Shown here: positions 3,654 to 39,959 of the stretch, piece by piece
Position numbering within the stretch: position 1 is the stretch's first letter
How the letters are laid out: each line of letters begins with the position of its first letter
Made by a program: the position numbers and the translations under genes
Assembly: GCA_002723085.1 (NCBI GenBank)
Contig: PBNK01000011.1
Coordinates: 1-41,718, forward strand
Source: Crocinitomicaceae bacterium
Lineage (GTDB): Bacteria; Bacteroidota; Bacteroidia; Flavobacteriales_D; Parvicellaceae
DNA length: 41,718 bases
Direction: 5' to 3'
The notes under the pieces: generated by a model
The model's database searches: none
What the model was told of the DNA's origin: nothing
What the model saw: only the letters and a program-made list of their open reading frames with translations

Positions 3654-3655
3654 CA

Positions 3656-6278: not shown

Positions 6279-7306
6279 ATAAAATAATTATTATTTCAAC
6301 ATTATACATTTTAATTATATCATGTGTTAAACTAAACCCTGAACCTATTGTTAATGGAAATAATATTAATCTTGAAAGCAAGAGCTTGATCATTTGTAAT
6401 GAAGGCGGTTTTCAAAACGGAAATGCTTCAATTTCTTTATATAGTAAAGAGGATAATACAGTCACTAATAACCTTTATCATTCCATAAACCAATCTAACA
6501 TAGGCGATGTTCTTCAATCAATTGCACATATAAATCATGAAATTTATTTAGTAGTAAATAACTCCCAAAAAATAATTGTAATTGACGATGAAACTTTTGA
6601 ATATAAAACAGAAATAAATGACTTCATATCACCTAGAAATATAATTTTAATCAACTCAAACCAAGCATATGTTACAGATTTATATGCCAATAAAATTTAT
6701 ATAGTTAATATAAATACTAAATCTATTACAAATGAAATTCGAGTAAGTGGATGGTGCGAAGAAATGATTTTACATAATGGAAAAGTATATGTAGCAAACA
6801 GAACAAATAACCAATTATATATAATAAACACATCATCTAATATGATAATTGACAGCATTCCAACTGCTGATAATCCTTCAGATATTGATATTGATAATAA
6901 TAATAAAATCTGGATTCTATCTAAGGGAAGTGTTTCTAATAATACAAATCCCGCTATATCAATTTTAGACCCAATAATGGATAGTATTATTTATGTAGAA
7001 ACACTAAACAACCTTAATGGATCTCCAAGTAATTTATCAATGAATTCAGATAAATCTTTTGCCTATTTCATTCAAGGAGACATCATAAAAACAAAAACCA
7101 ACTACCCTCTATCATTTGAAACAATTTATGAAAATACTGGTCAGCAATTTTATGGTCTTGGGATTGATCCTTACAATCAAGAAATTTATGTTTCTGACGC
7201 TATTGACTATATTCAAAATGGTACGATTTATAGGTTAGATAGTCTAGGAAATGAAATTGATGTATTTAATGCAGGCATAATTCCTAATAAATTTTTATTT
7301 CATTAA
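6275..7306 (+). CDS. BtuG-like beta-propeller lipoprotein (YncE/DUF5074-like)
   Basis: The start is TTG 6275, overlapping the upstream TGA by 3 bp. A lipoprotein signal ends at Cys17 (LYILIIS-C). The remaining protein consists of repeated beta-propeller blades, for example KIIVIDDETFEYKTEIN, KIYIVNINTKSITNEIRVSG and QLYIINTSSNMIIDSI, the YncE-like pattern. Bacteroides BtuG proteins are surface lipoproteins with seven-bladed propellers that bind cobalamin very tightly and hand it to BtuB. Size (343 aa), lipid anchor and locus all fit that role, but propeller sequences are generic and cobalamin binding is inferred. It is the last gene of the operon. Confidence 0.82.
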   Translation: MNKIIIISTLYILIISCVKLNPEPIVNGNNINLESKSLIICNEGGFQNGNASISLYSKEDNTVTNNLYHSINQSNIGDVLQSIAHINHEIYLVVNNSQKIIVIDDETFEYKTEINDFISPRNIILINSNQAYVTDLYANKIYIVNINTKSITNEIRVSGWCEEMILHNGKVYVANRTNNQLYIINTSSNMIIDSIPTADNPSDIDIDNNNKIWILSKGSVSNNTNPAISILDPIMDSIIYVETLNNLNGSPSNLSMNSDKSFAYFIQGDIIKTKTNYPLSFETIYENTGQQFYGLGIDPYNQEIYVSDAIDYIQNGTIYRLDSLGNEIDVFNAGIIPNKFLFH

Positions 7307-12200: not shown

Positions 12201-12494
12201 GTTAGGTACATCTAAAATATCATTACCAGAAGCACAAACAATTAATTTTTGATTAGGATTAATGGTTTGATTTGAAAACTTCCATTTGGATAAATTATTA
12301 ATATTATCAGATAAGTAATAATCAGAAATGTCTATAGGATTGCTACCATTATTAATAATTTCAATCCAATCTACATTATCACCAAACTCATCTGTATAGC
12401 CCTTATCAGCAGAAAATTCATTAATTTTTATCTGCGAATAAATTATATCATCAGAAAAAATTAAAAAAACAAAAAACAACAATCGGATTATCAT
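9240..12494 (-). CDS. Secreted multidomain CotH-family protein with lamin-tail, InlB-type repeat and T9SS domains
   Basis: This is a 1084-residue exported protein. In order: signal peptide (1-20); lamin tail domain (about 22-115, INEFSADKGYTDEFGDNVDW); an uncharacterised beta-rich region; a chitobiase/beta-hexosaminidase C-terminal-like domain (about 355-440, VYYTQNGDVPTFS); and a CotH domain (about 460-800). The CotH part shows DLEIHGGWSRAEPQRSFRLD, YLNGDYWGIYGIREKFDE and WRYMLFDTDASYGYFG. An InlB-type B repeat (SGYVFSHWDD), an Ig-like segment and a type A T9SS sorting domain (IYPNPAIESFNV) complete it. CotH proteins include atypical protein kinases (Bacillus spore coat); many Bacteroidota and Planctomycete homologues are secreted and of unknown substrate. 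Kinase activity here is not shown. The gene stands alone. Confidence 0.9.
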   Translation of the reverse strand: MIIRLLFFVFLIFSDDIIYSQIKINEFSADKGYTDEFGDNVDWIEIINNGSNPIDISDYYLSDNINNLSKWKFSNQTINPNQKLIVCASGNDILDVPNHWESLVLPQNTWNYWLGYSQPPSNWKEISFNDQFWNSGSGGFGYGDNDDNTVTPSNATSIYLRIKFSINDINDLSNLLFHADYDDGFVAYLNGTELMRSNNFDVLNPVYNTLTNSDHEAVLYSGGIPESILLNKLEFSQYLVQGDNVLAIQVHNTSTTSSDMSSNFFLSAGILSSNFNYQSLPSWLVPPSINTHANFKLSYGEKIILSSSNLTILDSISIPNNLDNGLTMGRSPDGSGNWCYFDQPTPASSNNSSWCYSGILEPPIISMPSGWYSSTIQVNKSTNGLSKVYYTQNGDVPTFSNQQFTAPISISNSSVLSVKAYPISGVNMLPSKVVDRTYIFNEDNHNLSVFSLITDDANLWDWNTGIYVSGPGATTNYPYFGSNFWQPWSKYTRLEYFDTNKTKRVEAEVDLEIHGGWSRAEPQRSFRLDAKSIYSGDIDWPVIPEKSFITDFNNLNLRNGGQHTWTDKIQDAVISRISKSTNVDRMAYEPCIVYLNGDYWGIYGIREKFDEHYIEDNHGVDADSVDLISREAALAGSTDHFFESYNLLMSTNATDISFYGLFDSRFDIDNYIDYFTIQTFIQNMDWMGIQWGLNNTKLWRPQKSNGKWRYMLFDTDASYGYFGQNIYENYLSKARSPSVVNRHSQIFNKVLENPQFKCQFTNRYNDLVNTIFQPNNVSYEALKIKNQLYDGMQDHINRWINSGSQTISSISNWQNAINSFVQYNSSRLTTAQLHLSQSLGLNGKKTVYLNVNPSNSGSININTINPNVYPWQGDYLGGCPVTISAIPDSGYVFSHWDDNAVTSSNPTQPNITTDLTSNVSFKANFIECDDVILVDFEKLDDDLHPIVSGVDTELTYEWYSNGILLSNDSILLNVNSGTYQLVISSNNCVVSSEIKYFSNDDFVYEIYPNPAIESFNVVFTINSAQDIKISLFNNLGQIVFEKKYNDVIGQFYEPISTKKYARDVYYVQIETEMGIYTNKLILVK

Positions 12495-16044: not shown

Positions 16045-17832
16045 CTAAGCTTCACACATTGCACAATCTTTTTTCTGTTTAAATTTTTGAGCAGCATTCA
16101 TGCTGTGTTGATAATACAACGATTTAAGCCCTAACTTCCAAGCAGTCACATAAATTTTATTGATGTCTTTAACAGGCATTTCAGGATGAACAATAATGTT
16201 AACTGATTGGCCTTGATCAATATAACTTTGTCTGTTTGCAGCTTGATATACAATATCCAACTGATCAATTTCAGAATATGTTTTAAAAACATCTTTCTCA
16301 TTATCAGATAAAAAATCTAAATGTTGAACAGAACCATCCCTATCTCTAATGCTGTGCCATACATCAATAGTATTTTTTCCTTTTTCATCTAATAATTTAA
16401 CTAAGAAAGGGTTTTTTATAGTTGTTTTAATTTTAGCAATGTCTTTTACATAAATATTAGACCATATAGGTTCAATTCCTTGAGAAACTTGTCCTAATAT
16501 AAAAGCTGAAGAAGTAGTTGGTGCAATGGCGTTTAAAGTTGCATTTCTTCTTCCATAACCTTTTAATATCTCTGGTTCTCCAAATTTACTTGCTAATTCT
16601 TCAGATGCCTTGTATGATTTTTCCTTTATTAATTTAAAGATTTCACTATTAAGGTTAAACGATTCTTGACTGTTAAATGGTAACATTTTAGACTGTAACA
16701 GTGAGTGCCATCCAAGTACACCTAAACCTAAAGACCTATTTTCTTTAGCGAAATTATAAGCCCTCTCCATAAATAAAAAGGTTTGGTTATCGTCTCTATC
16801 ATTTGAATCTCTATAAAACTCTAATTTTTCAAGAAACTCTGTAATAATGGCATCTAAAAAGTAAACCATAGTTTCTACAGCATCCGTATCTTTCCATTTA
16901 TCATAATGCAACACATTTAAAGAAGATAGACAACACACAAAAGACCATTTATCATTTGAAGGAAGCATAATTTCTGTACATAAGTTACTTGCATTTATTT
17001 TATATTCCTTGTCTTTATATACATCAGCAGCACCATTGTTTGCTTTATCTTTAAAAAAGATATAAGGATAACCCATCTCCCCTCTTCTCTGTAATACTTT
17101 TGCCCAAATGCTTCTTTTTTCTTGATCACCATCAACCATTTCTTTCATCCATTTATCAGTAACAGTAACCCCATGAGTAAGCTCTTGAATAGGATTTCCT
17201 TCTGTTCCAATATCTAAAAATTCTAAAATATCTTGATGTTCTATAGGCAAATAAGGAGAAAACCTTCCTCTTCTCACAGAACCTTGGCTGACCACATCAA
17301 CCATGGTTTCAAAAAGCTGCATAATGTGAACTGAACCTGACGCCTCACCATTATTTTTAACAGAAGAACCTCTATGTCTAATGTTTCCAAAATATCCAGA
17401 TGTTCCACCTCCGAGTTTAGACATCATACCTACCTCGGATTGTGTATATAGAATATTACCCATATCATCAGCGATATTTGAACCAAAACAACTTATTGGC
17501 AATCCCCTTTCCTTACCAAAGTTTGACCAAACAGGTGAAGACAAAGAAAAATAACCCAATGACATGTAATTATAAAACTTTTCAGCATAACCTTCTATTC
17601 CAAGAATTTGTTCTGCACGAGTTGCAATTTCTTTTATACGTGTTTCAGGTTTCACACCATCTGTTAAATAACCAGCTGCTAAAAAGTTACGGCTATGCTC
17701 AGTTAGCCATTCAAAATTATGACTGTATTTTTGATCTTTAAGCATCGCTTTTCTAGCGTTAAGCATTTGCTCTCTGTTGTGCATTTCTTCATGTTTTGCA
17801 CTTATATCTTGACTAGTAATTATTTTATCCAT
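16045..17832 (-). CDS. nrdA: Class I ribonucleotide reductase catalytic (alpha) subunit, lacking an N-terminal ATP-cone
   Basis: The 595-residue protein reduces ribonucleotides to deoxyribonucleotides in the cytoplasm. Visible catalytic features are: Cys115 in LPISCFGSN and Cys300/Cys301 in FVCCLSSLN (active-site disulfide pair); the NLCTE motif with Asn283, thiyl-radical Cys285 and Glu287; the LYYQ tyrosine pair of the radical path near residue 578; and a C-terminal CAMC (Cys590, Cys593) for re-reduction. The protein starts almost directly with the R1 core and has no ATP-cone, which explains the short length. The gene begins 1 bp after nrdB, in one operon with it. Confidence 0.95.
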   Translation of the reverse strand: MDKIITSQDISAKHEEMHNREQMLNARKAMLKDQKYSHNFEWLTEHSRNFLAAGYLTDGVKPETRIKEIATRAEQILGIEGYAEKFYNYMSLGYFSLSSPVWSNFGKERGLPISCFGSNIADDMGNILYTQSEVGMMSKLGGGTSGYFGNIRHRGSSVKNNGEASGSVHIMQLFETMVDVVSQGSVRRGRFSPYLPIEHQDILEFLDIGTEGNPIQELTHGVTVTDKWMKEMVDGDQEKRSIWAKVLQRRGEMGYPYIFFKDKANNGAADVYKDKEYKINASNLCTEIMLPSNDKWSFVCCLSSLNVLHYDKWKDTDAVETMVYFLDAIITEFLEKLEFYRDSNDRDDNQTFLFMERAYNFAKENRSLGLGVLGWHSLLQSKMLPFNSQESFNLNSEIFKLIKEKSYKASEELASKFGEPEILKGYGRRNATLNAIAPTTSSAFILGQVSQGIEPIWSNIYVKDIAKIKTTIKNPFLVKLLDEKGKNTIDVWHSIRDRDGSVQHLDFLSDNEKDVFKTYSEIDQLDIVYQAANRQSYIDQGQSVNIIVHPEMPVKDINKIYVTAWKLGLKSLYYQHSMNAAQKFKQKKDCAMCEA

Positions 17833-17833
17833 A

Positions 17834-19108
17834 TTAAAAAAGGTCGTCTGCTGTTATACTTTTTGTTCTTTTGCTGTAATTAATAGATCGCTTAACGAAA
17901 AAATCACCATGTTTTGTTCCAATGATTTCATCATTAAACCATTCAGTAAGTTCTAATAATGATTCATCAGTTTCAAAAACTTTGTCTACACCAATGCTAA
18001 CTAGAGATCTATTAAATCTATCTTTAATGAATTCTTTTACTTGGTTTTTAGGTAAGAATTCCAACTCACCTTCTTCGTATATCCAATCTATAATACCACT
18101 TTCTGCATCATAGGCTTTTAAACACATTTCCTGAATTCTGTTTTCATAGTCTTCATTAAACCACTCAGGATTTTCAGTTTTTATTATTTTAATTAAGTCA
18201 ATTCCAAAATCACCATGAATTTGCTCTTCTTTTGAAGTGGCTTCAACTACATTAGAAATGCCCTTAAGCATGTTTTTATGTTTATTAAAAGCCATTATGA
18301 TTAAAAATTGAGAAAACAATGAAACATGCTCAATAAATAAAGAGAACAACAATACAGATTCAGAATATTCACTTTCCACTTCACTTTTAGAATTTGAAAG
18401 GGCATTTTCAAGATATTGCACCCTTTTCATAATGACAGGTTTCTTTTTCAATACTTCAAACTCTTTATTTAATCCTAAAATTTCTAATAAATGAGAATAA
18501 GCATCAGCATGACGAACTTCACTCTCAGCAAAAGTAGCCCCAACTGATCCTATTTCAGGTTTAGGAATTTTATGATAAATGTCACCCCAAAAACTTTTCA
18601 CAGCCACCTCAATTTGTGATATAGCAAGCATTGTGTTTTTGATGGCATTTCTTTCCGATGATGAAAGACGTGCTTTAAAATCCTGAATATCACTAGTGAA
18701 ATTAAACTCTGAATGAATCCAATATGAATGCCTGATAGCAGGAACATATTCATACAATTCTGGATACTCGTATGGTTTTAAATTGATTCGTTTTTCAAAA
18801 ATATTACGTTGTCGTTTTTGAGCTTGATTGTTCCTATATATAATGTAGGATTTAGCAACTTCAAAAAACTTAGCTTCCATTAATTGTTGCTCAACTATGT
18901 CTTGAATTTCTTCTACATTAGGAACATAATTAGTAAACTTTTCATTTCTGTCAAGTAAAGTAAAATAAACATTCTTAGAAATATTTTCAGCATCTTCAGC
19001 AGATCCATTTCCGACTGATTTCATAGCTTTTAAAACAGCGCTAGTTATTTTGTCTAATTCAAATGCTTTCTTGGTAAAATCTCTTTTGATTATATTGATA
19101 ATCTTCAT
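17834..19108 (-). CDS. nrdB: Ribonucleotide reductase radical-generating (beta) subunit with N-terminal ATP-cone
   Basis: Residues about 1-95 form an ATP-cone (IIKRDFTKKAFELDKITSAV, then VPNVEEIQDIVEQQLMEAKF), the allosteric on/off domain usually found on NrdA. The R2 ferritin-like core follows. Likely metal ligands are Glu167, Glu197, His200, Glu260, Glu295 and His298 plus one further acidic residue, and Tyr204 sits where the radical tyrosine is expected. Established precedent is the Leeuwenhoekiella blandensis enzyme, where the cone on NrdB controls activity by changing quaternary structure on dATP binding. The partner NrdA here lacks a cone, consistent with that arrangement. First gene of the operon; its leader holds a -7 box and an inverted repeat. 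Confidence 0.95.
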   Translation of the reverse strand: MKIINIIKRDFTKKAFELDKITSAVLKAMKSVGNGSAEDAENISKNVYFTLLDRNEKFTNYVPNVEEIQDIVEQQLMEAKFFEVAKSYIIYRNNQAQKRQRNIFEKRINLKPYEYPELYEYVPAIRHSYWIHSEFNFTSDIQDFKARLSSSERNAIKNTMLAISQIEVAVKSFWGDIYHKIPKPEIGSVGATFAESEVRHADAYSHLLEILGLNKEFEVLKKKPVIMKRVQYLENALSNSKSEVESEYSESVLLFSLFIEHVSLFSQFLIIMAFNKHKNMLKGISNVVEATSKEEQIHGDFGIDLIKIIKTENPEWFNEDYENRIQEMCLKAYDAESGIIDWIYEEGELEFLPKNQVKEFIKDRFNRSLVSIGVDKVFETDESLLELTEWFNDEIIGTKHGDFFVKRSINYSKRTKSITADDLF

Positions 19109-27217: not shown

Positions 27218-28159
27218 TTACTGGGATAGAAAACTTAGTACGTTTTTCTCAATTCTATTAAGAGGATCTTGCAAATCAGATTTAACAAATTTATTACCAC
27301 TTACATTTTCATACAATTCAATATACCTTTCGGAAACAGATTGAACAAATTTATCGTTCATTTCAGGTATTGTTTGCCCATCTTTTCCTTGAAAACCATT
27401 TTCCATTAACCATTCTCTAACAAACTCTTTACTCAATTGTTTTTGTGGTTCGTTATTATCTTGTCTTTGTTGATATCCTTCAGCATAAAAATACCTGCTT
27501 GAGTCTGGAGTATGAATTTCATCAATTAAATAAATTTTACCATCTTTTTTACCAAATTCATATTTAGTATCAACCAAAATAAGTCCTCTTTCAGCAGCAA
27601 TATCAGTTCCTCTTTGAAATATTTTTCTTGTATAATTTTCTAACTGAACGTACTCAGACTCAGAAACTATTCCTTGATTAATAATTTCTTCTCTAGAAAT
27701 GTCTTCATCATGGCCCTCATCAGCTTTTGTTGAAGGAGTAATTATTGGTTCAGGAAATTTTTGATGTTCTTTCATTCCATCAGGCATCTCAACTCCACAT
27801 AATATTCGCTTGCCAGACTTATAGGTTCTCCATGCATGACCAGTAAGGTATCCGCGAATAACCATTTCTACTTTGTAAGGTTTACAACAATGACCAATTG
27901 TAACATTTGGATCAGGCGAAGCTAATCTCCAATTAGGAACTATATCTTTTGTTGCCTCAAGAAATTTTTCTGCCAATTGATTTAGCACTTGTCCTTTAAA
28001 TGGAATGCCTTTTGGCAACACAACATCAAAAGCAGAAATTCTATCGCTGACAACCATGACTAAAAAGTCATTATTAATATTATATACGTCTCTAACTTTT
28101 CCATGATACACATCTACTTGATTAGGAAAATTGAATGATGTTGAAGTTATTGCTTTCAA
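27218..28159 (-). CDS. purC: Phosphoribosylaminoimidazole-succinocarboxamide (SAICAR) synthase
   Basis: The 313-residue protein condenses CAIR with aspartate in purine synthesis, using ATP. Motifs seen: [26 protein letters not shown] near the N-terminus, [28 protein letters not shown], and [13 protein letters not shown]. Length matches the longer type common in Bacteroidota. Its start overlaps the phoH stop by 4 bp, so the two are translationally coupled. No purine riboswitch or other leader is possible in this arrangement. Confidence 0.97.
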
Positions 28160-29097
28160 GATTTATTGTTGTTAAATGCTTTAATAATTTGTTTTACTAA
28201 CGGATGTCTTATTACATCTGTCTCATCTAAAAAAACCATATCTATTCCTTTAGATTTTTTAAATAATTTCATAGCTAGTTTTAATCCGCTATTTTGATTT
28301 TTCGGCAAATCTATTTGAGTTACATCACCAGTAATTATAAATTTTGCAGATCTTCCCATTCTGGTAAGAAACATTTTAATTTGACTTTCAGTAGTGTTTT
28401 GACCTTCATCTAAAATAACAAAGGCATTATCTAAGGTTCTTCCTCTCATGAATCCCAATGGAGCAATTTGAATGATGCCTTCTTCCATATATTCAGATAA
28501 TTTTTCAGATGGAATCATATCCCTTAGAGCATCAAATAAAGGCAATAAATAAGGATCCAATTTATCTTTTAAATCTCCTGGAAGAAAACCTAAATTCTCA
28601 CCTGCTTCAACAGCTGGCCGGGTTAAAATAATTCTTTTTACCGATCTATTTTTAAGTGCTTTTACCGCAAGAGCAACAGCAGTATATGTTTTACCAGTAC
28701 CGGCTGGCCCAATTGCAAATAATAAATCATTTTTCTCAATAGAATCTACCATTTGAACTTGGTTTTTTGTCCTTGCTCTAACCACTAATCCCTTATTTCC
28801 ATAAATGAGAACTTTTTTTTGAAAATTAATGTCAGACATTGTATAACTGCCATTTAAAATACTTTTTAAATGTTCTTTATTAAGAGAATTAAAATTATTA
28901 TAATGACCAATAATTACATCCCATACAGTATTAAAATCGTCGATTGTATCGGAATCTCCAATAACTTTAAGTTTATCTCCACGAGCTATAACTTTTATTT
29001 TAGGATAATGACTACGAATTAAAGACAGGTTAGTATCTTTCGGTCCAAATAGATTAGCCTGATCAATTTTAGTTATGTCAAATATTATTTCTTGCAA
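28156..29097 (-). CDS. phoH: PhoH-family ATPase
   Basis: A 313-residue cytoplasmic P-loop protein. Walker A is GPAGTGKT at 130-137 and Walker B is FVILDEGQN at about 226-234. [12 protein letters not shown] and a late [14 protein letters not shown] are typical of PhoH/YbeZ proteins. The N-terminal ~100 residues form the small KH-like domain of the YbeZ branch. These proteins are linked to RNA metabolism and work with YbeY endonuclease; ybeY is not in the window. It heads the phoH-purC operon and is divergent from the SAM hydrolase gene, an adjacency I recall from other Bacteroidota. Confidence 0.95.
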
Positions 29098-29129
29098 ATA
29101 TTATGGAATATTTTGATGATAAAATATTG

Positions 29130-29137
29130 TATTTTTG
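29130..29137 (+). promoter_or_regulatory. Putative -7 box (TATTTTTG)
   Basis: TATTTTTG matches TAnnTTTG and lies 42 bp before the SAM hydrolase start. A TTTG lies at 29112-29115, but the 14-bp gap is shorter than usual for a -33/-7 pair. Confidence 0.4.
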
Positions 29138-29179
29138 GAAGGCAAAGGTAAAAAATACGTAATATAAATTTCAAAAAAA

Positions 29180-29977
29180 ATGTTTATTACATTAACAACT
29201 GACATGGGTTTAAAAGATTACTACGTAGCTACCTTAAAAGGAGCTATTTACAGTGAGCTTCCTAATGCTAATATTATTGACATAACCCATAACATAACCC
29301 CTTTTGACATTACTAATGCTGCTTTTGTTATAAAAAACTCCTACAAACATTTCCCAAAAAATACTATACATGTTATTGGAATTGATGCTGAACCTAGTGA
29401 AGCTACAAGACATATAATTGTTAAAACACACGATCAATACTTTATAGGTGCTGATAACGGAATATTTTCTTTAATATTTGATAAACAACCAGATGGAGTT
29501 TGGGAAATTAACCTAAAAACAGATGGGGAAGATTTTTCCTTTCCTACAAAAAATATTTTTATTAAATCTGCTTGTCATTTAGCAAGGGGTGGATTACCAG
29601 CAGTTATTGGAAACCCTATTAATAAAATAAAAAGCAAACAACTTTTTAGGCCTATCATTGAACCCAATTCTATTAAAGGTATGGTTAGCTACATAGATGA
29701 GTATGGAAATATAATTACTAACATAACCAAACAACTATTTAAAGAAATTGGAAAAAGTAGGCCATTTAATATTAACCTTACAAGATCAGGTTACAGTATT
29801 CAAAAGATTCATTCAAGATATGGAGAAGTTCCTGAAGGTGAAAGAATAGCTTTATTTGGCAGCAGTGGGTTTTTAGAAATTTCCATTAATAAAGGTGTCC
29901 AAGGATCAGGGGGTGGAGCTAGCCAGCTTTTTGGAATTGGATTAAATGACACCATAACCATTGACTTTAAAGATTAA
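29180..29977 (+). CDS. SAM hydrolase (SAM hydroxide adenosyltransferase, chlorinase/fluorinase superfamily)
   Basis: The 265-residue protein starts with FITLTTDMGLKDYYVATLKG and has IIDITHNITPFDITNAAFVI, VIGIDAEPSEATRHIIV and FIGADNGIFSL, the superfamily signatures (DUF62). A C-terminal beta-barrel domain begins about residue 170 (GMVSYIDEYGNIITNI). Most non-actinomycete members hydrolyse S-adenosylmethionine to adenosine and methionine, not halogenate, and I expect that here. The Gly-rich loop GVQGSGGGASQLFG is near the end. First gene of a likely four-gene run with the ABM protein, hutI and a DUF2490 protein. Confidence 0.92.
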   Translation: MFITLTTDMGLKDYYVATLKGAIYSELPNANIIDITHNITPFDITNAAFVIKNSYKHFPKNTIHVIGIDAEPSEATRHIIVKTHDQYFIGADNGIFSLIFDKQPDGVWEINLKTDGEDFSFPTKNIFIKSACHLARGGLPAVIGNPINKIKSKQLFRPIIEPNSIKGMVSYIDEYGNIITNITKQLFKEIGKSRPFNINLTRSGYSIQKIHSRYGEVPEGERIALFGSSGFLEISINKGVQGSGGGASQLFGIGLNDTITIDFKD

Positions 29978-29978
29978 T

Positions 29979-30272
29979 ATGATAAAGAGGATAGTTAAAT
30001 TATCAATTGAAAATAAAAAGAAGCAGGATTTTATTGATTTATTTACTCATAATCAAAGATTAATTTCTTCTTTTGAAGGGTGTTATAGTGTGGAGCTAAT
30101 TCAGGATATCAATCAAAAAAATATTTTTTTCACTTTAAGTGTATGGGAAAACGAAAATGCATTAAATAATTATAGAAACTCAAACTTATTTAATGGGATA
30201 TGGTCTAAAACGAAAACTTTTTTTAATGATAAACCAGAAGCCTGGAGTTTAGAAAAGATAAGTATAAAATAA
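29979..30272 (+). CDS. Antibiotic-biosynthesis-monooxygenase (ABM) domain protein
   Basis: A 97-residue dimeric alpha/beta-barrel type protein: IVKLSIENKKKQDFIDLF, then SSFEGCYSVELIQDIN and FFTLSVWENENALNNYRNS. I place the start at ATG 29979, just after the previous stop. An upstream TTG at 29961 in the same frame would add six residues overlapping the SAM hydrolase gene. ABM-domain proteins vary in function (heme degradation, quinol oxidation, or none known), and no active-site residue settles it here. One base separates it from hutI. Confidence 0.85.
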   Translation: MIKRIVKLSIENKKKQDFIDLFTHNQRLISSFEGCYSVELIQDINQKNIFFTLSVWENENALNNYRNSNLFNGIWSKTKTFFNDKPEAWSLEKISIK

Positions 30273-30273
30273 T

Positions 30274-31506
30274 ATGATTTTAACTAATATAAAGCAATTA
30301 GTAGGGATACAATCAGAAGATAAACTTAAAACTTCTGGATTTGAAATGAATAAACTTAACATTATTGAAAATGCTTATTTACAAATTAATAATGGTAAAA
30401 TAATTGGTTTTGGAAAGATGAAAGATCTTTCAATGGACGAAATAGAAGAAGTTGAAGATTTAACTGGCAAGCTAGTTTTACCTGCTTGGAATGATTCACA
30501 TACTCATCTAGTTTACGCAGGGACAAGAGAAAAAGAATTTATTGACCGAATTAATGGATTATCCTATGAAGAAATAGCTGCCAGAGGAGGTGGAATACTA
30601 AATTCAGCTAAACTGATGGAAGAAACTTCTGAAAATGATTTATATGCTGCAGCTGAAAATAGACTTAAGCAGGTAATGAATATGGGTACTGGAGCGATTG
30701 AAATTAAAAGTGGTTATGGTCTTTCATTGAATGGAGAATTAAAAATGTTAAGAACCATTAAAAGACTAAATGAAAAATTTGACTTAACAGTTAAAGCAAC
30801 TTTCTTAGGTGCTCATGCACTTCCAAAAAAATATAAAAACAATAAAGAAAAGTACCTTGATTTAATTATTAAGGAGATGCTTCCAAATATAGAAAAAGAA
30901 GGTCTTGCAGAATATATTGACATTTTCTGTGAAACTAATTATTTTTCGGTAGATGATATGCATAAAATACTTGAAGCTGGAAGGAAACATGGGTTAAAAC
31001 CAAAAGTTCATGTAAATCAATTCACAAGTATTGGAGGAATTCAAAAAGCTATTGAATGGGATGCTATTTCTGTTGATCATTTAGAAGTCATGAATGGGAA
31101 AGATTTTAATGCTCTAAAAAACAAATCAACAATTGCAACACTTCTTCCCTCCTGCTCTTTCTTTATTAACATACCATTTGGACCTGCTAAGAAGTTAATT
31201 GAAAAAAATATAAGTTTTGCATTAGCAACAGACTATAACCCTGGATCATCTCCAAATGGAAACATGAACTTAGTAAATGCTTTGGCTTGTATAAAAATGA
31301 ATATATCTCCTGAAGCAGCTTTTAATGCTAGCACCTTGAATGGAGCTTATGCTATGGAAATATCTAAAAATACAGGTTCTATAACAGAAGGGAAATTAGC
31401 TAACATTAATGTTACTTCAAATATTAACTCCTATGGATTTATGCCTTATTCCTTTGGGCAAAACCATATAGAAAGAACTATGATTAAAGGAAAATGGATT
31501 AATTAA
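30274..31506 (+). CDS. hutI: Imidazolonepropionase
   Basis: The 410-residue amidohydrolase opens imidazolone-5-propionate to N-formimino-L-glutamate in histidine breakdown. Metal-site and substrate motifs seen: NDSHTHLVYAGTREKEF (HxH), RGGGILNSAK, GAIEIKSGYGL, FLGAHALP, KVHVNQF, VDHLEVM and ATDYNPGSSPNGNMNL. Length is normal for the family. No other hut gene (hutH, hutU, hutG) is in the window, so the rest of the pathway must lie elsewhere. It sits in a run with the SAM hydrolase and ABM genes. Confidence 0.97.
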   Translation: MILTNIKQLVGIQSEDKLKTSGFEMNKLNIIENAYLQINNGKIIGFGKMKDLSMDEIEEVEDLTGKLVLPAWNDSHTHLVYAGTREKEFIDRINGLSYEEIAARGGGILNSAKLMEETSENDLYAAAENRLKQVMNMGTGAIEIKSGYGLSLNGELKMLRTIKRLNEKFDLTVKATFLGAHALPKKYKNNKEKYLDLIIKEMLPNIEKEGLAEYIDIFCETNYFSVDDMHKILEAGRKHGLKPKVHVNQFTSIGGIQKAIEWDAISVDHLEVMNGKDFNALKNKSTIATLLPSCSFFINIPFGPAKKLIEKNISFALATDYNPGSSPNGNMNLVNALACIKMNISPEAAFNASTLNGAYAMEISKNTGSITEGKLANINVTSNINSYGFMPYSFGQNHIERTMIKGKWIN

Positions 31507-31515
31507 ATATAAAAA

Positions 31516-32217
31516 ATGAAAAACAAAGTAATTTTAAGTTTGGCAATTTTAATTTTATCAAATGTTTCAATTGCTCAAAAAGAAGAAAGTTTAGGAAATT
31601 GGTTAATGTATTTTGGAACTCATAAACTAAACGACAAGCTCAGTTTACATTACGAAACACAATTACGTAATTATAAGGTAACTTCAAATTTCAATCAACT
31701 TCTTCCAAGAGTTGGCATCAATTATAAAATTGATGATAACTCTATGGTAACTGCTGGATATGCATTGATTCCAACTCAAAGTGAGTTTAATGATGGCTGG
31801 AACGAATCTATGTCTGTGGAAAATAGAATATGGCAACAATTCATTTTAAAAAATAAGATAGGTAATATAAGCATTAGGCACCGTTATAGACTAGAACAAA
31901 GATGGATTAAATCACAATATCATTTAAATCATATTAATCCAGTTACAAATACAACTTATAAAAATAGAGCACGATACATGTTGTCTGTTAAAATTCCATT
32001 ATCAAAAAATGAAGACTTTCCATTATTTCTTTCAGTCTATGATGAAATATTTTTAAACATTTCAGATACCCCATTTGATCAAAATAGACTTTTTGGAGCA
32101 CTTGGTTTTCAGTTAAGTAAAAGCATGAATATACAAGCTGGTTACTTGAGACATAGAACTGGTGATTTGAATTTAAACAGATTACAACTGGCTGTATTCC
32201 TGAATACAGGAAACTAA
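31516..32217 (+). CDS. DUF2490 outer-membrane beta-barrel protein
   Basis: A 233-residue protein with signal peptide (about 1-20, ending SIAQ). Alternating strands typical of DUF2490 follow: LGNWLMYFGTHKLNDKLSLH, LPRVGINYKIDDNSMVTAGY, ISIRHRYRLEQRWI. It ends in a short strand with aromatic content (LQLAVFLNTGN). It is predicted to sit in the outer membrane; function of the family is unknown. It follows hutI by 9 bp and its end overlaps the convergent TonB receptor gene by 4 bp. Confidence 0.88.
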   Translation: MKNKVILSLAILILSNVSIAQKEESLGNWLMYFGTHKLNDKLSLHYETQLRNYKVTSNFNQLLPRVGINYKIDDNSMVTAGYALIPTQSEFNDGWNESMSVENRIWQQFILKNKIGNISIRHRYRLEQRWIKSQYHLNHINPVTNTTYKNRARYMLSVKIPLSKNEDFPLFLSVYDEIFLNISDTPFDQNRLFGALGFQLSKSMNIQAGYLRHRTGDLNLNRLQLAVFLNTGN

Positions 32218-34514
32218 AACTCAGCTCTCAATTGAAGCATAAAGGTTCTTGGTGAACCCATGTTTGCTGGCCTTATTAAATAAGGTGTATTAAATATATT
32301 TTCACCTAAAAGACCTAATGTGAAACCATTTTCAAACTTATACTTAATTCGAGCGTCAAATAAATGGTATCCATTATTTAATCTTTCCAAAGAATTATTG
32401 ATTCCTAAATCAACTGTACCAATATTTGGATTATCAAGATTAAAAAGTTCAGTTGTAAAAACTTCATCAATGTTTATCATTTTCGCATTGTATTGGTAAG
32501 AAAAACCCAAACTAAAAGCATCTTTGTATTTAAATTCTAGATCAAAACGTACAGTCTGTCTATGTCTATACTTCAAAACTGATCCAGTAGTATCTGAACT
32601 TGTATTATTAAAAGTATAATCTATTGTATTTGAATAATTTGTAGCAAATGAAGAATCTGGATAAACAGAAATAGGATTAGACCATGTAAAACCACTTAAA
32701 ATTGCAAAAGAAAAATTTTCACTAATAGATCCACTTCCGTTTAATGTAAATTCAAAACCTGGGATTTTTGTAGTTCCAACATTCTGAGAAATAAATCCAA
32801 TTCCGAAAAGCGGATCACTTGTTGGACCCCATTGGCCAAAAGTAAATTCCATCATATCATTGTATTCCATTAAAAAGCCAACTAAGTCAATGTATCCACT
32901 AAAATCATCTATTTTAAATACTTTTTTAAATCCAATTTCTGACGTCCATCCTGATTCTGGTCTTAAGTTCAGATTATTATATAAGTTAACAGGTCCAATA
33001 TCTCCTCTCATATAAAGTTCAGTAATGGTAGGAAACCTAAAACCTTGACCAAAAGAAGCTCTTACATTAAATCCTTCTTTTAATTTATAATTTACACCAG
33101 CTCTAAAAACAGGTCTACCTACTTTTATGGTATCTAAATCAAAGTATTCATACCTAGCTCCACCAGAAAAATTCCATTTGGATACTTTATAATCAATTTG
33201 AGTATAACCGCTAATATTTTTGCCTTTTAATTCTCCTCCATAAGCATAGGCTCTACCCATCAATGTAGTTAATGTAGCACCAGAAGTAATTGTGGTATTA
33301 TCTGTTCTATACTGGTTTTGATATTCATTAAAAGTCAACAATGAAGTAATCGTACTTGGATTGTTGTTGACATAAGTGATGTTTCTTCTTAAAATTCTAC
33401 TTCTTAATGTATGTTTAAAAAAGTTTTTATAAAATGTAATATAAGGATCAATATAAAACCTAGAACCTGCATTTGGAATAGCCGTTCCATCAAATGGAAT
33501 ATAGGCAGAAGTATCAGAACTCCACATAGCAAAAAGAGGACTTTCTCTTTGCATATAATTGGCGTTAATTCCAAAAGTTACATCGTCCTTAACATATCTA
33601 GTATTCATAGATAAACGAGTTTGCACGTTATTTACATCCTTAACAAAACCTTTATCGTTGTAATGATTGGCCGAAAGTACTAAATCCAGTTTTTTTATTT
33701 TTCTAGAATGGGTCATGCTTACACCCGAACGCCATCTGGTATCATCTCCCCACCAATTTAAATTGGTATCAGATGGAGCATCCCAAAAACCTTGAAAAAA
33801 ACCTACTGTTGTTTTTGGTTCAATTCCTGGCATTTTTGTTTTAATGTTAACCACTCCATTTAAAGCTGAAGAACCATATAGTGCTGAAGAAGCACCTTTA
33901 ATTATTTCCATTTGCTCCACATTTTCCATTGGGATTAAATTAAACTCTACTTCACCTTGATCTGCTGATAGAATGGGCATATCATCTACCATAACTAAAA
34001 CCCTACTTCCAGTACCGTAACTCCATCCACTTCCAGCCCTTATATTTAATTGTCCATCTGTCAGTTGAACACCAGGAGCATTTCTAATAACATCAGCCAA
34101 TGTAATGCAGTTTTTACTTTCAATTAGCTTTGCTCCAATTACATCAACTGAAACGGTTACTTCTTCTAATTTTTGTTTAAACTTAGAAGCTGAGACTACC
34201 ATAACATCTAACTGATTATTTTCTTCAACGAGATAAATGTCTTTGACTATAGCCTTAGTAATTTGAACTGGAACCAACTGCGTTTGGTAACCAATATATG
34301 AATACATTATTTTATGAGACCCTGGCTCAAGTGATAGAGTGTATTCTCCATTGAAATCAGTAACTGTTCCTTTACTGTTGTTAACTTTTATATTTACACC
34401 TATTAATGGTTCTTTAGTGACAGCATCAAGTATTTTACCAGAAACAAAAGTTTCTTGAGCAAGAAAGATGCAAGAATATAATGTAGCAAATAATAAGAGA
34501 TAAAGTTTTGACAT
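32214..34514 (-). CDS. TonB-dependent receptor with N-terminal carboxypeptidase-like domain
   Basis: The 766-residue protein has a signal peptide (1-19), a CarboxypepD_reg-like domain (about 22-108: VSGKILDAVTKEPLIGVNIK) and a plug domain (about 110-225: GSGWSYGTGSRVLVMVDDMP, IIKGASSALYGSSALNGVVN). A 22-strand-type barrel ends in a typical FMLQLRAEF. Motifs such as RASFGQGFRFPTITELYMRG are shared with siderophore, heme and cobalamin receptors. Substrate is unknown: no SusD partner, riboswitch or dedicated binding protein is adjacent. The 237-bp upstream region holds inverted repeats that could serve regulation. Confidence 0.93.
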   Translation of the reverse strand: MSKLYLLLFATLYSCIFLAQETFVSGKILDAVTKEPLIGVNIKVNNSKGTVTDFNGEYTLSLEPGSHKIMYSYIGYQTQLVPVQITKAIVKDIYLVEENNQLDVMVVSASKFKQKLEEVTVSVDVIGAKLIESKNCITLADVIRNAPGVQLTDGQLNIRAGSGWSYGTGSRVLVMVDDMPILSADQGEVEFNLIPMENVEQMEIIKGASSALYGSSALNGVVNIKTKMPGIEPKTTVGFFQGFWDAPSDTNLNWWGDDTRWRSGVSMTHSRKIKKLDLVLSANHYNDKGFVKDVNNVQTRLSMNTRYVKDDVTFGINANYMQRESPLFAMWSSDTSAYIPFDGTAIPNAGSRFYIDPYITFYKNFFKHTLRSRILRRNITYVNNNPSTITSLLTFNEYQNQYRTDNTTITSGATLTTLMGRAYAYGGELKGKNISGYTQIDYKVSKWNFSGGARYEYFDLDTIKVGRPVFRAGVNYKLKEGFNVRASFGQGFRFPTITELYMRGDIGPVNLYNNLNLRPESGWTSEIGFKKVFKIDDFSGYIDLVGFLMEYNDMMEFTFGQWGPTSDPLFGIGFISQNVGTTKIPGFEFTLNGSGSISENFSFAILSGFTWSNPISVYPDSSFATNYSNTIDYTFNNTSSDTTGSVLKYRHRQTVRFDLEFKYKDAFSLGFSYQYNAKMINIDEVFTTELFNLDNPNIGTVDLGINNSLERLNNGYHLFDARIKYKFENGFTLGLLGENIFNTPYLIRPANMGSPRTFMLQLRAEF

Positions 34515-34626
34515 CTATAACAATGATAAAATAAAAATCAATTTAAAAATAACTTTAAAAAGTGAATTATTACATAAACTATGTTAATATATACACTTTA
34601 TAAATTAATACTCAAAATACATTTTT

Positions 34627-34700
34627 CTCATTAATAATGAGCCAAAAAAAATAATCTATTAATAATTAACACATTAGTTATTAACATTTATGGATGTTAA
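34627..34700. promoter_or_regulatory. Inverted repeats between divergent genes, possible operators
   Basis: Two perfect inverted repeats lie between the TonB receptor and the small secreted protein gene. CTCATTA-A-TAATGAG is at 34627-34641, and TTAACAT-(6 bp)-ATGTTAA at 34681-34700. In such AT-rich DNA some symmetry is expected by chance, so confidence is low. No Bacteroidota -7 box was found in this gap. Confidence 0.3.
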
Positions 34701-34751
34701 ACATGAAAAATTTTATAAAAAGAGAAGAGTTTAATATATTCACGACCCTTT

Positions 34752-35132
34752 TTGAAAATTTTGAATTTATCTAATTATAAATATATAGCCCTGTTCATTC
34801 TGTTTTTTGCAGGAAATTATTCTGCAATAGGTCAAGCATCAATTGTCCAACAAAATGGGGAACAATTTCAAATAAATAAAGAAAATTCTGAAGAAAAAGA
34901 TAACATTGTTAAAAACGATAAATTGATAGAAAACGAAAATAGTTTATTTAATAAAACACATATCTTTTCAAATAAAAATTACAGAAATAATCAAGAAATA
35001 CAACCAAAAAAAATAAGAACTACAAAAATTGGAGAACTGTTTTCAAGAATTGGTTTGGGTTTAAAAAAGTATTGTCAAGACAATAAAATTTCTGGTAAAA
35101 AAGCCCTAAGAATTCTTAAGATGATTAATTAG
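34752..35132 (+). CDS. Small secreted hypothetical protein
   Basis: The 126-residue protein starts at TTG 34752 and has a signal peptide (about 1-28, FILFFAGNYSAIGQ). An Asn/Lys/Glu-rich central segment with no clear fold follows. The last 35 residues (RTTKIGELFSRIGLGLKKYCQD to LRILKMIN) look like an amphipathic basic helix. I recognise no family. The stop overlaps the convergent kinase-like gene by 4 bp. The basic C-terminal helix could bind membrane or a partner; this is speculation. Confidence 0.55.
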   Translation: MKILNLSNYKYIALFILFFAGNYSAIGQASIVQQNGEQFQINKENSEEKDNIVKNDKLIENENSLFNKTHIFSNKNYRNNQEIQPKKIRTTKIGELFSRIGLGLKKYCQDNKISGKKALRILKMIN

Positions 35133-35980
35133 TCTTTTAACATTCTTATATGATAATCTACAAGCCCATTTACAGGTTTTCTTATAATATTTCCAATTTT
35201 AACTTTGTTTTTTTCTGCAGCTAATCTAAGTTCATTTTCGTATAAAGCACTGATTGAGCCAATAAAATGAGATTTAACTTCTTTATAATTATCATAACAA
35301 CAAACGTGTGTTTTCATAAATTGATCCATTCCGTTTTCCACCATTTTTGAAACATAATTGTTTTCTTTATGATTTGTAATAAACTTCATAAATGAAGCTA
35401 AATACACATTTGCATTTGGCCTCATATATACATTTTCAAAAATAATGGCTTTACTTATATTAAAATTACACTCTAAATCATCTTTAATTTCAGATGGTAA
35501 TTTATTATATAAATAATCCGTTAATAATTTTTTACCAAAATAAGAACCTGAACCTTCATCTCCTAAAACATATCCTAAAGCAGGTACTTTTTCAATTAAT
35601 TCATAACCATCATAATAACAAGAATTAGATCCAGTTCCTAAAATACATGAAATGGATGGTTCATTTTCATAAGTAGATAAGGCACAAGCTAATAAATCAT
35701 GTTCAACATTAACTTTTGCCTTTTTAAAAATGCCTTGTAAGGCATTTTTAATAACTGAATTCAATTCTTCAGACGAACAACCAGCACCATAAAAATAAAT
35801 TTCTTCTACATCTCTACAAGAGTTATAAAACTCAACATTCTCATGAATATGTTTGGAAATTAACTTATCATCATGAAAAAAAGGATTAAAACCAATAGTA
35901 TGAAAAACAGATAGTTGACTATTATGATTAATCAACACCCAATCTGTTTTTGTGGAACCGCTTTCAGCTATTAATATCAT
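35129..35980 (-). CDS. N-acetylglucosamine-kinase-like protein (BadF/BadG ATPase family)
   Basis: The 283-residue ASKHA-fold protein begins MILIAESGSTKTDWVLIN, the phosphate-1 motif. It carries CILGTGSNSCYYDG (phosphate-2) and ALGYVLGDEGSGSYFGKKLL, a combination typical of N-acetylglucosamine kinases of this family. The likely reaction is phosphorylation of GlcNAc (or a related amino sugar) for cell-wall recycling or glycan use, in the cytoplasm. No GlcNAc pathway partner is adjacent. It is separated by 144 bp of AT-rich sequence from the GH13-like gene upstream on the same strand. Confidence 0.9.
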   Translation of the reverse strand: MILIAESGSTKTDWVLINHNSQLSVFHTIGFNPFFHDDKLISKHIHENVEFYNSCRDVEEIYFYGAGCSSEELNSVIKNALQGIFKKAKVNVEHDLLACALSTYENEPSISCILGTGSNSCYYDGYELIEKVPALGYVLGDEGSGSYFGKKLLTDYLYNKLPSEIKDDLECNFNISKAIIFENVYMRPNANVYLASFMKFITNHKENNYVSKMVENGMDQFMKTHVCCYDNYKEVKSHFIGSISALYENELRLAAEKNKVKIGNIIRKPVNGLVDYHIRMLKD

Positions 35981-36124: not shown

Positions 36125-38020
36125 TTAAAAGAAATACTCAATTATTAGAAATCCATTTTTTTCAATATTGATTTTATCTTTAATATTTATCTCTTTGTTT
36201 TCTAAAAAATCAAGAGCAATTCCTTGTTTAGATTTTAATGGTATATCATTAATATAGCTTCTAATATCTATTGTCTTATTAATATTATCATTATTTAAAA
36301 ATAACAACACCATTTTTTCTTTATTGTATCTAACCAAGCAGTATAATTTATCATCAAAATCAGGAGCAAAATGTAATAACTTTCCATTATGTAATACTTT
36401 ATTGTTTAATCTCCAATTCAATAATTTTTTTAAGAAAATTTGTGCTTCAACTTGTTCTTCATTAAGTCCTTTACCAGAGAAACCGTTAATTTTATCGCTT
36501 TTCCATCCTCCTGGAAAATCAAGATCACACCCAGTAATTTTACCAGGTCCTAATCTATTAGAAAGTAAAATTTCAGATCCATAATATATCTGAGGAATTC
36601 CTCTTGTTATTAATAAGTAGGCTAAAGCCTTTTTCCAGTTAGCTAAATTATAATTTAATGAAGAGTAGACTCTTTTAATATTATTATTATCCAGAAAAAC
36701 AATCATTTTATGAGGATCTGAATACAAATAATCATCAACTAAACTCTCATATAAAAAGTGTAATTTATTTTCATTTTTAGAATCATTTTCTTGAAAAGAA
36801 TTTATAATAGCATTTTGCAATGGATAATCCATTAATGAAGAAATATTTGTTGGTTTTGAATTTAATAATACTGGAATATCAATAATTTCTTCTTCCGAAC
36901 TGTTTTTTTGCATTAATCCAATTGAGGATTTATTATAGACATTACCATCAACTATAATATTAATATTTGGATAAAATGTTTGTAACTCAGAAGCCCATTT
37001 ATTTAAAAATTTATTATCAACATATGAAAAATAAGGAACCCTTAAACCATCTAAATCAGCATATTCCATCCACCAAATAGCATTTTGAATCAAGTAAGTT
37101 GATAAATATTTATTAGCCTGATTTAAGTCTGGTTTATTGTCTTCAATCCATCCATTTTTGTAGTTATATAAATCTCTTTTGGAAGCATATGGATCATTTA
37201 AAGATTCTACCCTTTCATTTGACAACTTAATACTCTTTTGATTATTAAACCACTTTTTAGTTGGTATATCATTCATCCACCAATGTTCTAATCCTATGTG
37301 ATTTAAAACTAAATCTTTTATTAATTTGAGATTTTTTTTGTGGCACTCATTTGAAAGTTCTTTATACAATTTATTTGACCCATATCTTGGATCAATTTTA
37401 TACATATCTGTACAAGAAAAACCATTATATGATTTATTTTCTGCATTATTTTCTAAAACAGGATTCATACAAATAGATGTAAAACCCATATCTTTTATGT
37501 AGTTTAAATTATCAATTAAACCCTGTAAATCGCCTCCATGTCTGCTGTCTGAATTATTTCTATTTACTTTTTTTTGTTTAAACTCTTTGTTTTTATCATT
37601 GCTATTATCACCATTATTAAAACGATCAGCAGAAATCAAATAAATAACATCTGATGAACTTACTCCATTTTTAAAACTTTTAGAAGAGCTTCTCTCTTTT
37701 AAATTATAAGTGATTTTATCAATTAAATCCTCTTCATAATAAAATTGAATTTCAAAATTTGTAGCTTCATCAATATCTCCAATAATTAAATCAAGAAATA
37801 AGTAATTTATATTATTATCTGAGCTATACCTTTTAATTGATATGTTTTCATGATTAATAACAGGCCTCCTTTTTCCAATTTCATCTCCATATATCATTAA
37901 TTGCAGGTTTTCATTGGGCATATTAACCCACCAATTTGGTGGCTCAACCTTCCAAACATGACTTTGAGAAATAAAATAATTATTAAAAAAAATAATTAAT
38001 AAAAGAAAAACAATACGCAT
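36125..38020 (-). CDS. GH13 alpha-amylase/neopullulanase-like protein lacking catalytic residues
   Basis: The 631-residue protein has a signal peptide (about 1-19), a cyclomaltodextrinase-type N-terminal domain (about 21-110), a GH13 TIM barrel (about 120-545) and a C-terminal beta domain. The fold markers are intact: YLISADRFNNGD, HGGDLQGL, KDLVLNHIG (Asp236, Asn240, His241), DGLR at 324-327, TRGIPQIYYGSEIL and DFPGGW. The catalytic residues are not. The nucleophile position after DGLRV is Pro329 and not Asp. The acid/base Glu region reads IIVDGNVYN (Asp358/Gly359). FLDNHD has become FLDNNN (444-447, Asn447 for Asp). Active relatives such as neopullulanase/SusA hydrolyse alpha-glucans. This one is probably non-hydrolytic, perhaps glycan-binding. 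It follows the S9 peptidase gene by 16 bp. Confidence 0.9.
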   Translation of the reverse strand: MRIVFLLLIIFFNNYFISQSHVWKVEPPNWWVNMPNENLQLMIYGDEIGKRRPVINHENISIKRYSSDNNINYLFLDLIIGDIDEATNFEIQFYYEEDLIDKITYNLKERSSSKSFKNGVSSSDVIYLISADRFNNGDNSNDKNKEFKQKKVNRNNSDSRHGGDLQGLIDNLNYIKDMGFTSICMNPVLENNAENKSYNGFSCTDMYKIDPRYGSNKLYKELSNECHKKNLKLIKDLVLNHIGLEHWWMNDIPTKKWFNNQKSIKLSNERVESLNDPYASKRDLYNYKNGWIEDNKPDLNQANKYLSTYLIQNAIWWMEYADLDGLRVPYFSYVDNKFLNKWASELQTFYPNINIIVDGNVYNKSSIGLMQKNSSEEEIIDIPVLLNSKPTNISSLMDYPLQNAIINSFQENDSKNENKLHFLYESLVDDYLYSDPHKMIVFLDNNNIKRVYSSLNYNLANWKKALAYLLITRGIPQIYYGSEILLSNRLGPGKITGCDLDFPGGWKSDKINGFSGKGLNEEQVEAQIFLKKLLNWRLNNKVLHNGKLLHFAPDFDDKLYCLVRYNKEKMVLLFLNNDNINKTIDIRSYINDIPLKSKQGIALDFLENKEINIKDKINIEKNGFLIIEYFF

Positions 38021-38036: not shown

Positions 38037-39959
38037 TCAATTTAAATAAAGACTCAAAAATTTCTCCATGGACCTGTAAAAATCAAATCTATTTTCTTCA
38101 TTTCTAAAACCATGTCCTTCGTCATCTTTTACTAAGTATTCAACATCAACCCCTCTTTCTTTCATTGCTTTTACCATTTGGTCTGATTCATCAACATTAA
38201 CCCTGGGATCATTAGCCCCTTGCGCTATGAAAAGAGGAGCTTTTATTTTGTCTACGTGAAATACGGGTGACACTTCTTTTAACATTATGCTGTCTTTTTC
38301 TACATCACCTACCATTTCATACATCATATCTAACATTGGTTCCCAATAAGGAGGAATAGTCTTCATGAATGTAAACATATTAGAAACGCCAACATAATCT
38401 ACACCAGCTGCATATAAATCTGGCTCTTTAACTAACCCCATCAATGTAGCATAGCCTCCATAACTTCCTCCATAAATTGCAATTTTATTTTTATCAGCAA
38501 TGCCTTGATCAATTAACCATTGCGTTCCATCAGTTATATCATCCTGCATTTCTCTTCCCCACTTTTTAAAAGAAGCTTCCCAAAATTTTCGTCCATATCC
38601 AGTAGAACCTCGGTAGTTCATTTGTAAAACAGCATATCCTCTATTTGCTAAAAATTGTATTTCAGGATTAAAGCCCCAACCGTCTCTAGTCCATGGACCT
38701 CCATGAGGATTTACAACAACAGGTAGGTTTTTTGCATTTTTCATATTATAACCTTTAGGAAGTGTTAAGTATCCGTTAATGGTTAATCCGTCTCTTGAAT
38801 TGTACTTAATGGGCAATTGACTGGACATTTCATTTTCATCAATCCAAGGGCTAACCTCAACAATTTTATCCATTTTATCTTCAGCAGAATTATATATAAA
38901 ATAGGCTCCTAATGATTTATCGCTGTAAGTTCTCACAATAAAAATATTTTCATCATCATTAATACCTGTTATGCCAATTTCATATCCAGGCAAGTGATTT
39001 TTGATATTTTCATAAGTTAATTTAGAATCAGAATCAAAAAAATGACGTTCACTTTTCCAACTGTTGTAATATGCTGCAGTAATTACTTTTCTTTTTCTTG
39101 AATACCCAACCCCACTTATATCATAATCATTATTTCCAAATAGCTCCTTGATTTCAGTGCCGGTTAAAGGGTCAAATTCTACAACAACTGATTTATCTCT
39201 ACCAAGATTAGAAACTCCTATTATGTTTTTATTATCGAAAGTGAAAAATTGTGGACTAAAACCTTCTTTAAAATTAGTAGTAACTATAGTTTTAAACTCC
39301 TCTTCCTCAGAGTCTCTATACAATATGCTTTGGTTTACACCATCAACAATGGCTGTGGCAATTCTTAATTTTCCATCATGATCAAACATCCATCCTTGAA
39401 TGTTCCCAGGATTTTCAGCCAACATTGACATTTCTCCTGACTTTAAATTAAGTCTATATGGATCAAATACTTGTTTATTACGCTTATTCAGGCCTATTAT
39501 AACAAAATCTTTCTGATCAGGTAAATCATCTATTATTTGCGCTCTAACCCCCTCAAAGTCTGTAAAGCTTATTGGGTTAGTTCCATCAATATTTACTCCA
39601 AATAAATGAAAATTCTCATCGCCACCAGCATCTTTTAAGAACATTATTTGTTCATCGTTTGGCCAGAAATAACCTGAGATGTCCCTATCTGTTTCATGAG
39701 TCAACTGAACAGCAGATGTATCCCCTATTTTCTGAACGAAAATATTCATTCTATTTTTGTAAGGAGCCATGTAAGAATAGTAATTTCCATTTGGAGATAT
39801 TTGATAACTTGATTTTTCTGGATTCTTAAAAAAATCTTCTAGAGGTATTTTTTTTGCTTTCACTATTTCGTTGTTTATTTGATTTGGTTCTGTAGAAGAA
39901 CATGAGAAAAGTCCAAAAGCTAAAATGGACATTAAAAAAAAAGGATTTAATTTTAACAT
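38037..39959 (-). CDS. S9-family (prolyl oligopeptidase type) serine peptidase lipoprotein
   Basis: The 640-residue protein has a lipoprotein signal with Cys20 (LAFGLFS-C), so it is anchored in the cell envelope. An N-terminal beta-propeller (about 40-370) has repeats such as GYFWPNDEQIMFLKDAGGDENF. The alpha/beta-hydrolase domain (about 385-640) carries catalytic Ser499 in GGSYGG, Asp584 in GANDPRV and His616 in EGHGF. Members cut short peptides after Pro, Ala or acylated residues. The triad is complete, so activity is expected, probably in periplasmic peptide use. It is the first gene of a likely two-gene unit with the GH13-like gene. Confidence 0.95.
   Translation of the reverse strand: MLKLNPFFLMSILAFGLFSCSSTEPNQINNEIVKAKKIPLEDFFKNPEKSSYQISPNGNYYSYMAPYKNRMNIFVQKIGDTSAVQLTHETDRDISGYFWPNDEQIMFLKDAGGDENFHLFGVNIDGTNPISFTDFEGVRAQIIDDLPDQKDFVIIGLNKRNKQVFDPYRLNLKSGEMSMLAENPGNIQGWMFDHDGKLRIATAIVDGVNQSILYRDSEEEEFKTIVTTNFKEGFSPQFFTFDNKNIIGVSNLGRDKSVVVEFDPLTGTEIKELFGNNDYDISGVGYSRKRKVITAAYYNSWKSERHFFDSDSKLTYENIKNHLPGYEIGITGINDDENIFIVRTYSDKSLGAYFIYNSAEDKMDKIVEVSPWIDENEMSSQLPIKYNSRDGLTINGYLTLPKGYNMKNAKNLPVVVNPHGGPWTRDGWGFNPEIQFLANRGYAVLQMNYRGSTGYGRKFWEASFKKWGREMQDDITDGTQWLIDQGIADKNKIAIYGGSYGGYATLMGLVKEPDLYAAGVDYVGVSNMFTFMKTIPPYWEPMLDMMYEMVGDVEKDSIMLKEVSPVFHVDKIKAPLFIAQGANDPRVNVDESDQMVKAMKERGVDVEYLVKDDEGHGFRNEENRFDFYRSMEKFLSLYLN

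Follow-up and report, generated by a model that had tools for sequence, protein, structure and literature searches.

A minus-strand gene at 36125-38020 of the analysed DNA probably encodes a diverged paralogue of the SusA-type amylase/cyclomaltodextrinases of GH13_46, which are periplasmic; it would have lost its hydrolase chemistry but still be retained as an exported and folded protein without catalysis. The window, i.e. the whole stretch that was analysed, comprises 41,718 nt of contig PBNK01000011.1 in GCA_002723085.1, a 46-contig draft assembly of a flavobacterial genome.

Reading frame and domain architecture

36125..38020, minus strand: GH13_46-like putative pseudoenzyme gene, complete ORF of 631 aa with PF00128, PF09087 and PF10438
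37961..38020, minus strand: hydrophobic N-terminus, probable signal peptide, residues 1-20 (read from the sequence)
37691..37951, minus strand: N domain, cyclomaltodextrinase N-terminal PF09087, residues 24-110 (Pfam, E 4.6e-23)
36557..37636, minus strand: GH13 TIM-barrel PF00128, residues 129-488 (Pfam; fold match to 1h3g, Z 28.6)
36137..36379, minus strand: C domain PF10438 (cyclomaltodextrinase C), residues 548-628 (Pfam)

The 631-aa frame on the minus strand is interrupted neither by a stop codon nor by a frameshift, and the plus strand at 36125-38020 is stop-ridden. As described in the first-pass annotation, the structural motifs KDLVLNHIG, HGGDLQGL, IPQIYYGSE and DFPGGW are retained over the full length. 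The same annotation had called the protein exported, which is likely in view of the hydrophobic N-terminus and the SusA-type relatives; a lipobox Cys was not seen on reading residues 1-20. The closest solved structures were all FsCMD, SusA or GH13_46, namely the cyclomaltodextrinase of Flavobacterium sp. No. 92 (1h3g, E 5.8e-134; alignment beginning at residue 24 of our protein), SusA (9fyz) and a Bacteroides GH13_46 protein (9dcq). Foldseek with our structure model matched the same entries. The model is of modest confidence (pLDDT 60, pTM 0.69) and superposes on 1h3g with Z 28.6 and an rmsd of 3.5 over 552 residues. Promoter matches were no commoner than in shuffled sequences and thus uninformative, and no terminator-like site was found.

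Loss of catalytic and subsite -1 residues

37034..37036, minus strand: Pro329 (CCT) in place of the nucleophile Asp, at the end of beta4 (1h3g alignment, structure model, homologue columns)
36947..36949, minus strand: Asp358 (GAT) in place of the acid/base Glu, at the end of beta5 (1h3g alignment, structure model, homologue columns)
36680..36685, minus strand: Asn446-Asn447 (AAT AAT) in place of the His-Asp pair (transition-state stabiliser) in beta7 (1h3g alignment, homologue columns)
37418..37426, minus strand: Asn199 and Phe201 at subsite -1, where His and Tyr of YHGY are otherwise invariant (homologue columns)

Alignment to 1h3g, of the kind that had been proposed as a check, placed P329, D358 and N447 at the three catalytic positions. 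Pro329 within DGLRVP aligns with the Asp of GLRIDTY in 1h3g and Asn447 within FLDNNN with the Asp of NHD, so that the earlier assignment of both replacements holds. Asp358 within NIIVDGNVYN aligns with the first Glu of VGEEW, and the 3edd construct, with its Gln in this column, corroborates the assignment. The acid/base motif had also been listed as altered; the Glu is indeed gone (IIVDGNVYN), but an acid is kept in its place. The exchange of Glu for Asp at 358 is conservative and that of the nucleophile for Pro at 329 is not. In all 94 homologues, which were fetched by similarity from the same family, order, class and phylum, the D/E/D triad and the His preceding the third Asp are invariant; this His is lost as well in our protein (Asn446). 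With D/E/D kept by 94/94, the replacements exceed what chance would give. The acids near the catalytic sites are D322, D324, D335, E345, D358 and D444, and no obvious substitute nucleophile was recognised among them.

The changes extend to further conserved positions. With the 94 homologues, 86 columns were at least 95% conserved, of which the window protein keeps 72 and changes 14 (P131A, W184C, H199N, Y201F, F292I, M296K, D329P, T330Y, E358D, W360N, F399Y, H446N, D447N, R499D). The homologues change six at most, and 54 of the 94 change none. When a set of 75 homologues was used (85 conserved columns, again 14 changed), six columns were changed and six kept within the four core motifs compared with eight changed and 65 kept elsewhere (Fisher p 0.004). 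Divergence from outgroups was raised in the barrel (0.60 vs about 0.51) and in its beta4-beta5 segment (0.77 vs about 0.59). It was not raised in the N and C domains, where distances are near saturation and equal rates are thus weak evidence.

In GH13 enzymes (Taka-amylase numbering: His80, Tyr82, His122, Arg204, Asp206, Glu230, His296 and Asp297), subsite -1 is lined by the His and Tyr of YHGY, the His of region I, the Arg that precedes the nucleophile by two residues and the region-IV His-Asp pair. Only Arg327 and His241 of these are kept and the others are replaced; Asp236 of the cleft is kept as well.

An acidic residue at the acid/base position could suggest an active enzyme of unusual mechanism, in which Asp358 would work with another acid. 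A changed third catalytic residue has been described for BmaN1, an amylase with an aberrant triad that carries His for the third Asp and is still active, which shows that activity can survive when only this Asp is lost (PMC5347038). BmaN1, however, keeps its nucleophile and acid/base residue, whereas our protein has Pro for the nucleophile and lacks several residues of subsite -1. We therefore regard such an enzyme as highly improbable.

Relation to GH13_46 enzymes

The study that defined GH13_46 admitted only sequences with an intact triad and described MPDLN in CSR-V, Glu directly following the proton donor and a tandem Trp as features of the subfamily (PMC9781549). The window protein has the FsCMD-type N domain before the barrel (PF09087, residues 24-110) and the tandem Trp in helix alpha3 (W316-W317). 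It lacks the intact triad (P329, D358, N447), and CSR-V reads KPDLN, the Met296 column being Met in 94/94 homologues. The Glu after the proton donor in CSR-III is replaced by Gly359; as Glu occurs in 60/94 homologues, this position is variable there too. Because domain order and tandem Trp agree and triad, MPDLN and Glu do not, we classed the protein as GH13_46-derived and not as a working member. Similarly, it resembles 1h3g and SusA (9fyz) in the N, A/B, C domain order, with about 35% identity over the full length, in the tandem Trp, in DFPGGW and in the calcium-site-like NGD...HGGD motifs, and differs from both in the triad, in KPDLN instead of MPDLN, in the missing Glu and in the aromatic end F-S-Y of CSR-II. 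Its catalytic residues are replaced and its fold is kept, as in a pseudoenzyme recognised by sequence.

Origin and distribution of the copy

The genome has one other full-length relative, which is 44% identical and intact (GFRVD, GEEW, DNHD); at this identity synonymous sites are presumably saturated. It lies on another contig than the window, in a locus for starch utilisation that also contains SusC/SusD-type genes and other GH13 genes. In the phylogeny the window copy was sister to a clade of seven SusA-type genes of the family including this paralogue (support 100/98), on a branch of 1.19, which is long and was placed in a tree without any other GH13 subfamily. The other GH13_46 genes of the family (L013, L014, L039) were placed elsewhere. 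A clade of the window copy and its own-genome paralogue alone was rejected by the AU test (p 0.003), a value to be read with caution for long branches. As judged from these comparisons, the copy is long diverged from the normal starch-digesting enzyme of the same genome. Duplication without catalytic loss also occurs, since another family genome (G023) has two GH13_46 genes, L039 and L040, both with the catalytic residues kept.

No orthologue was found in 39 genomes of the family, 399 of the order, 395 of the class and 395 of the phylum (overlapping samples). One scan of genome contigs with the window protein yielded five relatives of 31-35% identity, none of them an orthologue; its seeds were exact peptides, so only close relatives are detectable by it. 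The only other genome of the genus (73% complete) is without either copy. The copy is lineage-restricted as far as sampled. A search for orthologues sharing the substitutions had been proposed and came back empty in these samples. The substitutions were seen in one copy and, as no orthologue was found, are not demonstrable as shared. The first-pass annotation had further reasoned that orthologues all keeping D/E/D would mark a lone decaying copy: the homologues do all keep it, yet there is no orthologue of this copy among them, nor does the gene give the impression of decaying freely.

Retention of the reading frame

The missing orthologues and the long branch (1.19) are what one would also expect of a decaying duplicate, i.e. 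a gene that lost catalysis recently and drifts towards a pseudogene. Moreover, its GC content is below that of the paralogue at all three codon positions; its codon-position composition is nevertheless still gene-like. Against decay, the frame is free of stops and frameshifts and the losses cluster at the active site. We mutated the intact paralogue neutrally until 14 conserved columns were lost (3000 runs). Such loss left a mean of 7.9-8.8 stop codons (about 8), none of the 3000 runs was stop-free, and at least six core-motif hits were reached in 10/3000. Since neutral runs with equal loss were never stop-free, selection seems to have maintained the frame. Neutral drift through the whole period of loss is an assumption of the simulation, which constrains a partly selected history less. 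It is thus unlikely that the copy simply drifts, although selection may have acted before or during the loss. Altogether we consider decay improbable. The earlier proposal that the fold is under selection while the chemistry is lost is supported by the sequence, the 94 intact homologues, the active-site-focused change and the absent stop codons. At the sequence level, the assignment as a pseudoenzyme that is retained rather than decaying is well supported.

Genomic context

38037..39959, minus strand: S9 prolyl-oligopeptidase-family peptidase gene, directly upstream with a 16-bp gap (ORF, Pfam; probably co-transcribed)
35129..35980, minus strand: sugar-kinase-like gene (BadF/NagK type), downstream (weak NagK match; synteny)
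28156-35980: block with PhoH, SAM hydroxide adenosyltransferase, amidohydrolase, DUF2490, TonB receptor and the sugar-kinase-like gene; same gene order as at the far end of the starch locus of the sister genus g4

The position directly behind the S9 peptidase gene had been pointed out before. The short gap and the common strand bear this out, but the adjacency is absent in the related genomes checked and thus says little on function; in the sister genus, unrelated genes and no GH13 gene come after the S9 orthologues (82-87% identical). On the other side, the counterpart of the kinase stands at the end of the starch locus in g4, preceded there by a GH31 gene and in one genome also by apparent genes of a sugar-acid pathway. 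Collinearity with this end of the locus extends from the kinase to the TonB receptor at 32214 and further to the genes at 31516, 30274 and 29180. As the starch locus of our genome is on a different contig, the collinearity of 28156-35980 suggests that a rearrangement took place, with the pseudoenzyme and S9 genes at its apparent break. The link to alpha-glucan use that follows from this neighbourhood is one of ancestry only.

Elsewhere in the window, 16045-19108 encodes a ribonucleotide reductase large subunit beside a small subunit with an N-terminal ATP-cone, an allosteric domain usually carried by the large subunit. At 1758-7306, a TonB receptor precedes a DUF4465 protein, a second protein and a DUF5074 protein; the DUF4465 protein and the second one carry type IX secretion sorting tails, and the whole looks like a surface uptake cluster. 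The product of 9240-12494 is 1084 aa long and combines domains for CotH kinase, lamin-tail and type IX secretion sorting.

Possible functions

Computed from the alignments, all three catalytic positions and several subsite -1 residues are replaced and frame, domains and fold motifs are kept; such a protein would presumably be exported, lack hydrolase activity and be retained for a non-catalytic role. In the reading that we prefer, it might act via contacts with the intact paralogue or another periplasmic protein, or via a remodelled cleft. Its role could be that of a partner subunit, a repurposed binder or, less likely, a glucan sensor.

A periplasmic alpha-glucan binding or sensing protein using the old cleft, as first suggested, is one form of this explanation. 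The starch-locus ancestry, the kept cleft residues Asp236, His241 and Arg327 and the adjacent kinase, which is part of the starch locus in sister genomes, speak for it. The equivalents of His199, Tyr201, Trp184, Met296 and Arg499, however, were lost along with the catalytic residues, and no sensor or regulator gene adjoins the pseudoenzyme gene. As residues holding the sugar at subsite -1 are also lost, His199 and Tyr201 among them, the idea is weakened; a binder using the same cleft is less likely than supposed, and we consider it rather unlikely.

For a partner subunit, the example would be the intact paralogue. In plants, ISA2 is a catalytically dead GH13 protein that forms heteromers with the active ISA1 (PMC12510319), and the Flavobacterium relative oligomerises via its N domain (PMC9781549). 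Like ISA2, the window protein varies at the catalytic residues and exists beside an active paralogue; unlike it, ISA2 belongs to another GH13 subfamily and is deeply conserved in plants and green algae, and a partnership here is conjecture. By this analogy, a regulatory or structural subunit of the SusA-type paralogue or of another periplasmic protein, as a periplasmic counterpart of ISA1/ISA2, is a tentative possibility. Comparable losses were described for the 4F2hc ectodomain, a GH13 fold without catalytic residues that is kept for a protein partner (PMC8537225), and for MKIP1, a branching-enzyme homologue that lost GH13 catalysis and gained a non-carbohydrate function (PMC13172542). In contrast to our protein, 4F2hc is an animal membrane transporter subunit without domain B and MKIP1 a plant plastid splicing factor with a 150-aa insertion.

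Implications

GH13 proteins without catalysis but with a role are thus already documented in animals and plants. In the literature searched we found no report of a pseudoenzyme in the GH13_46 (SusA) subfamily, whose defining study selected for an intact triad (PMC9781549). The case cautions against calling such genes amylases. A bacterial case beside an active paralogue would make pseudoenzyme function testable in a simple system.
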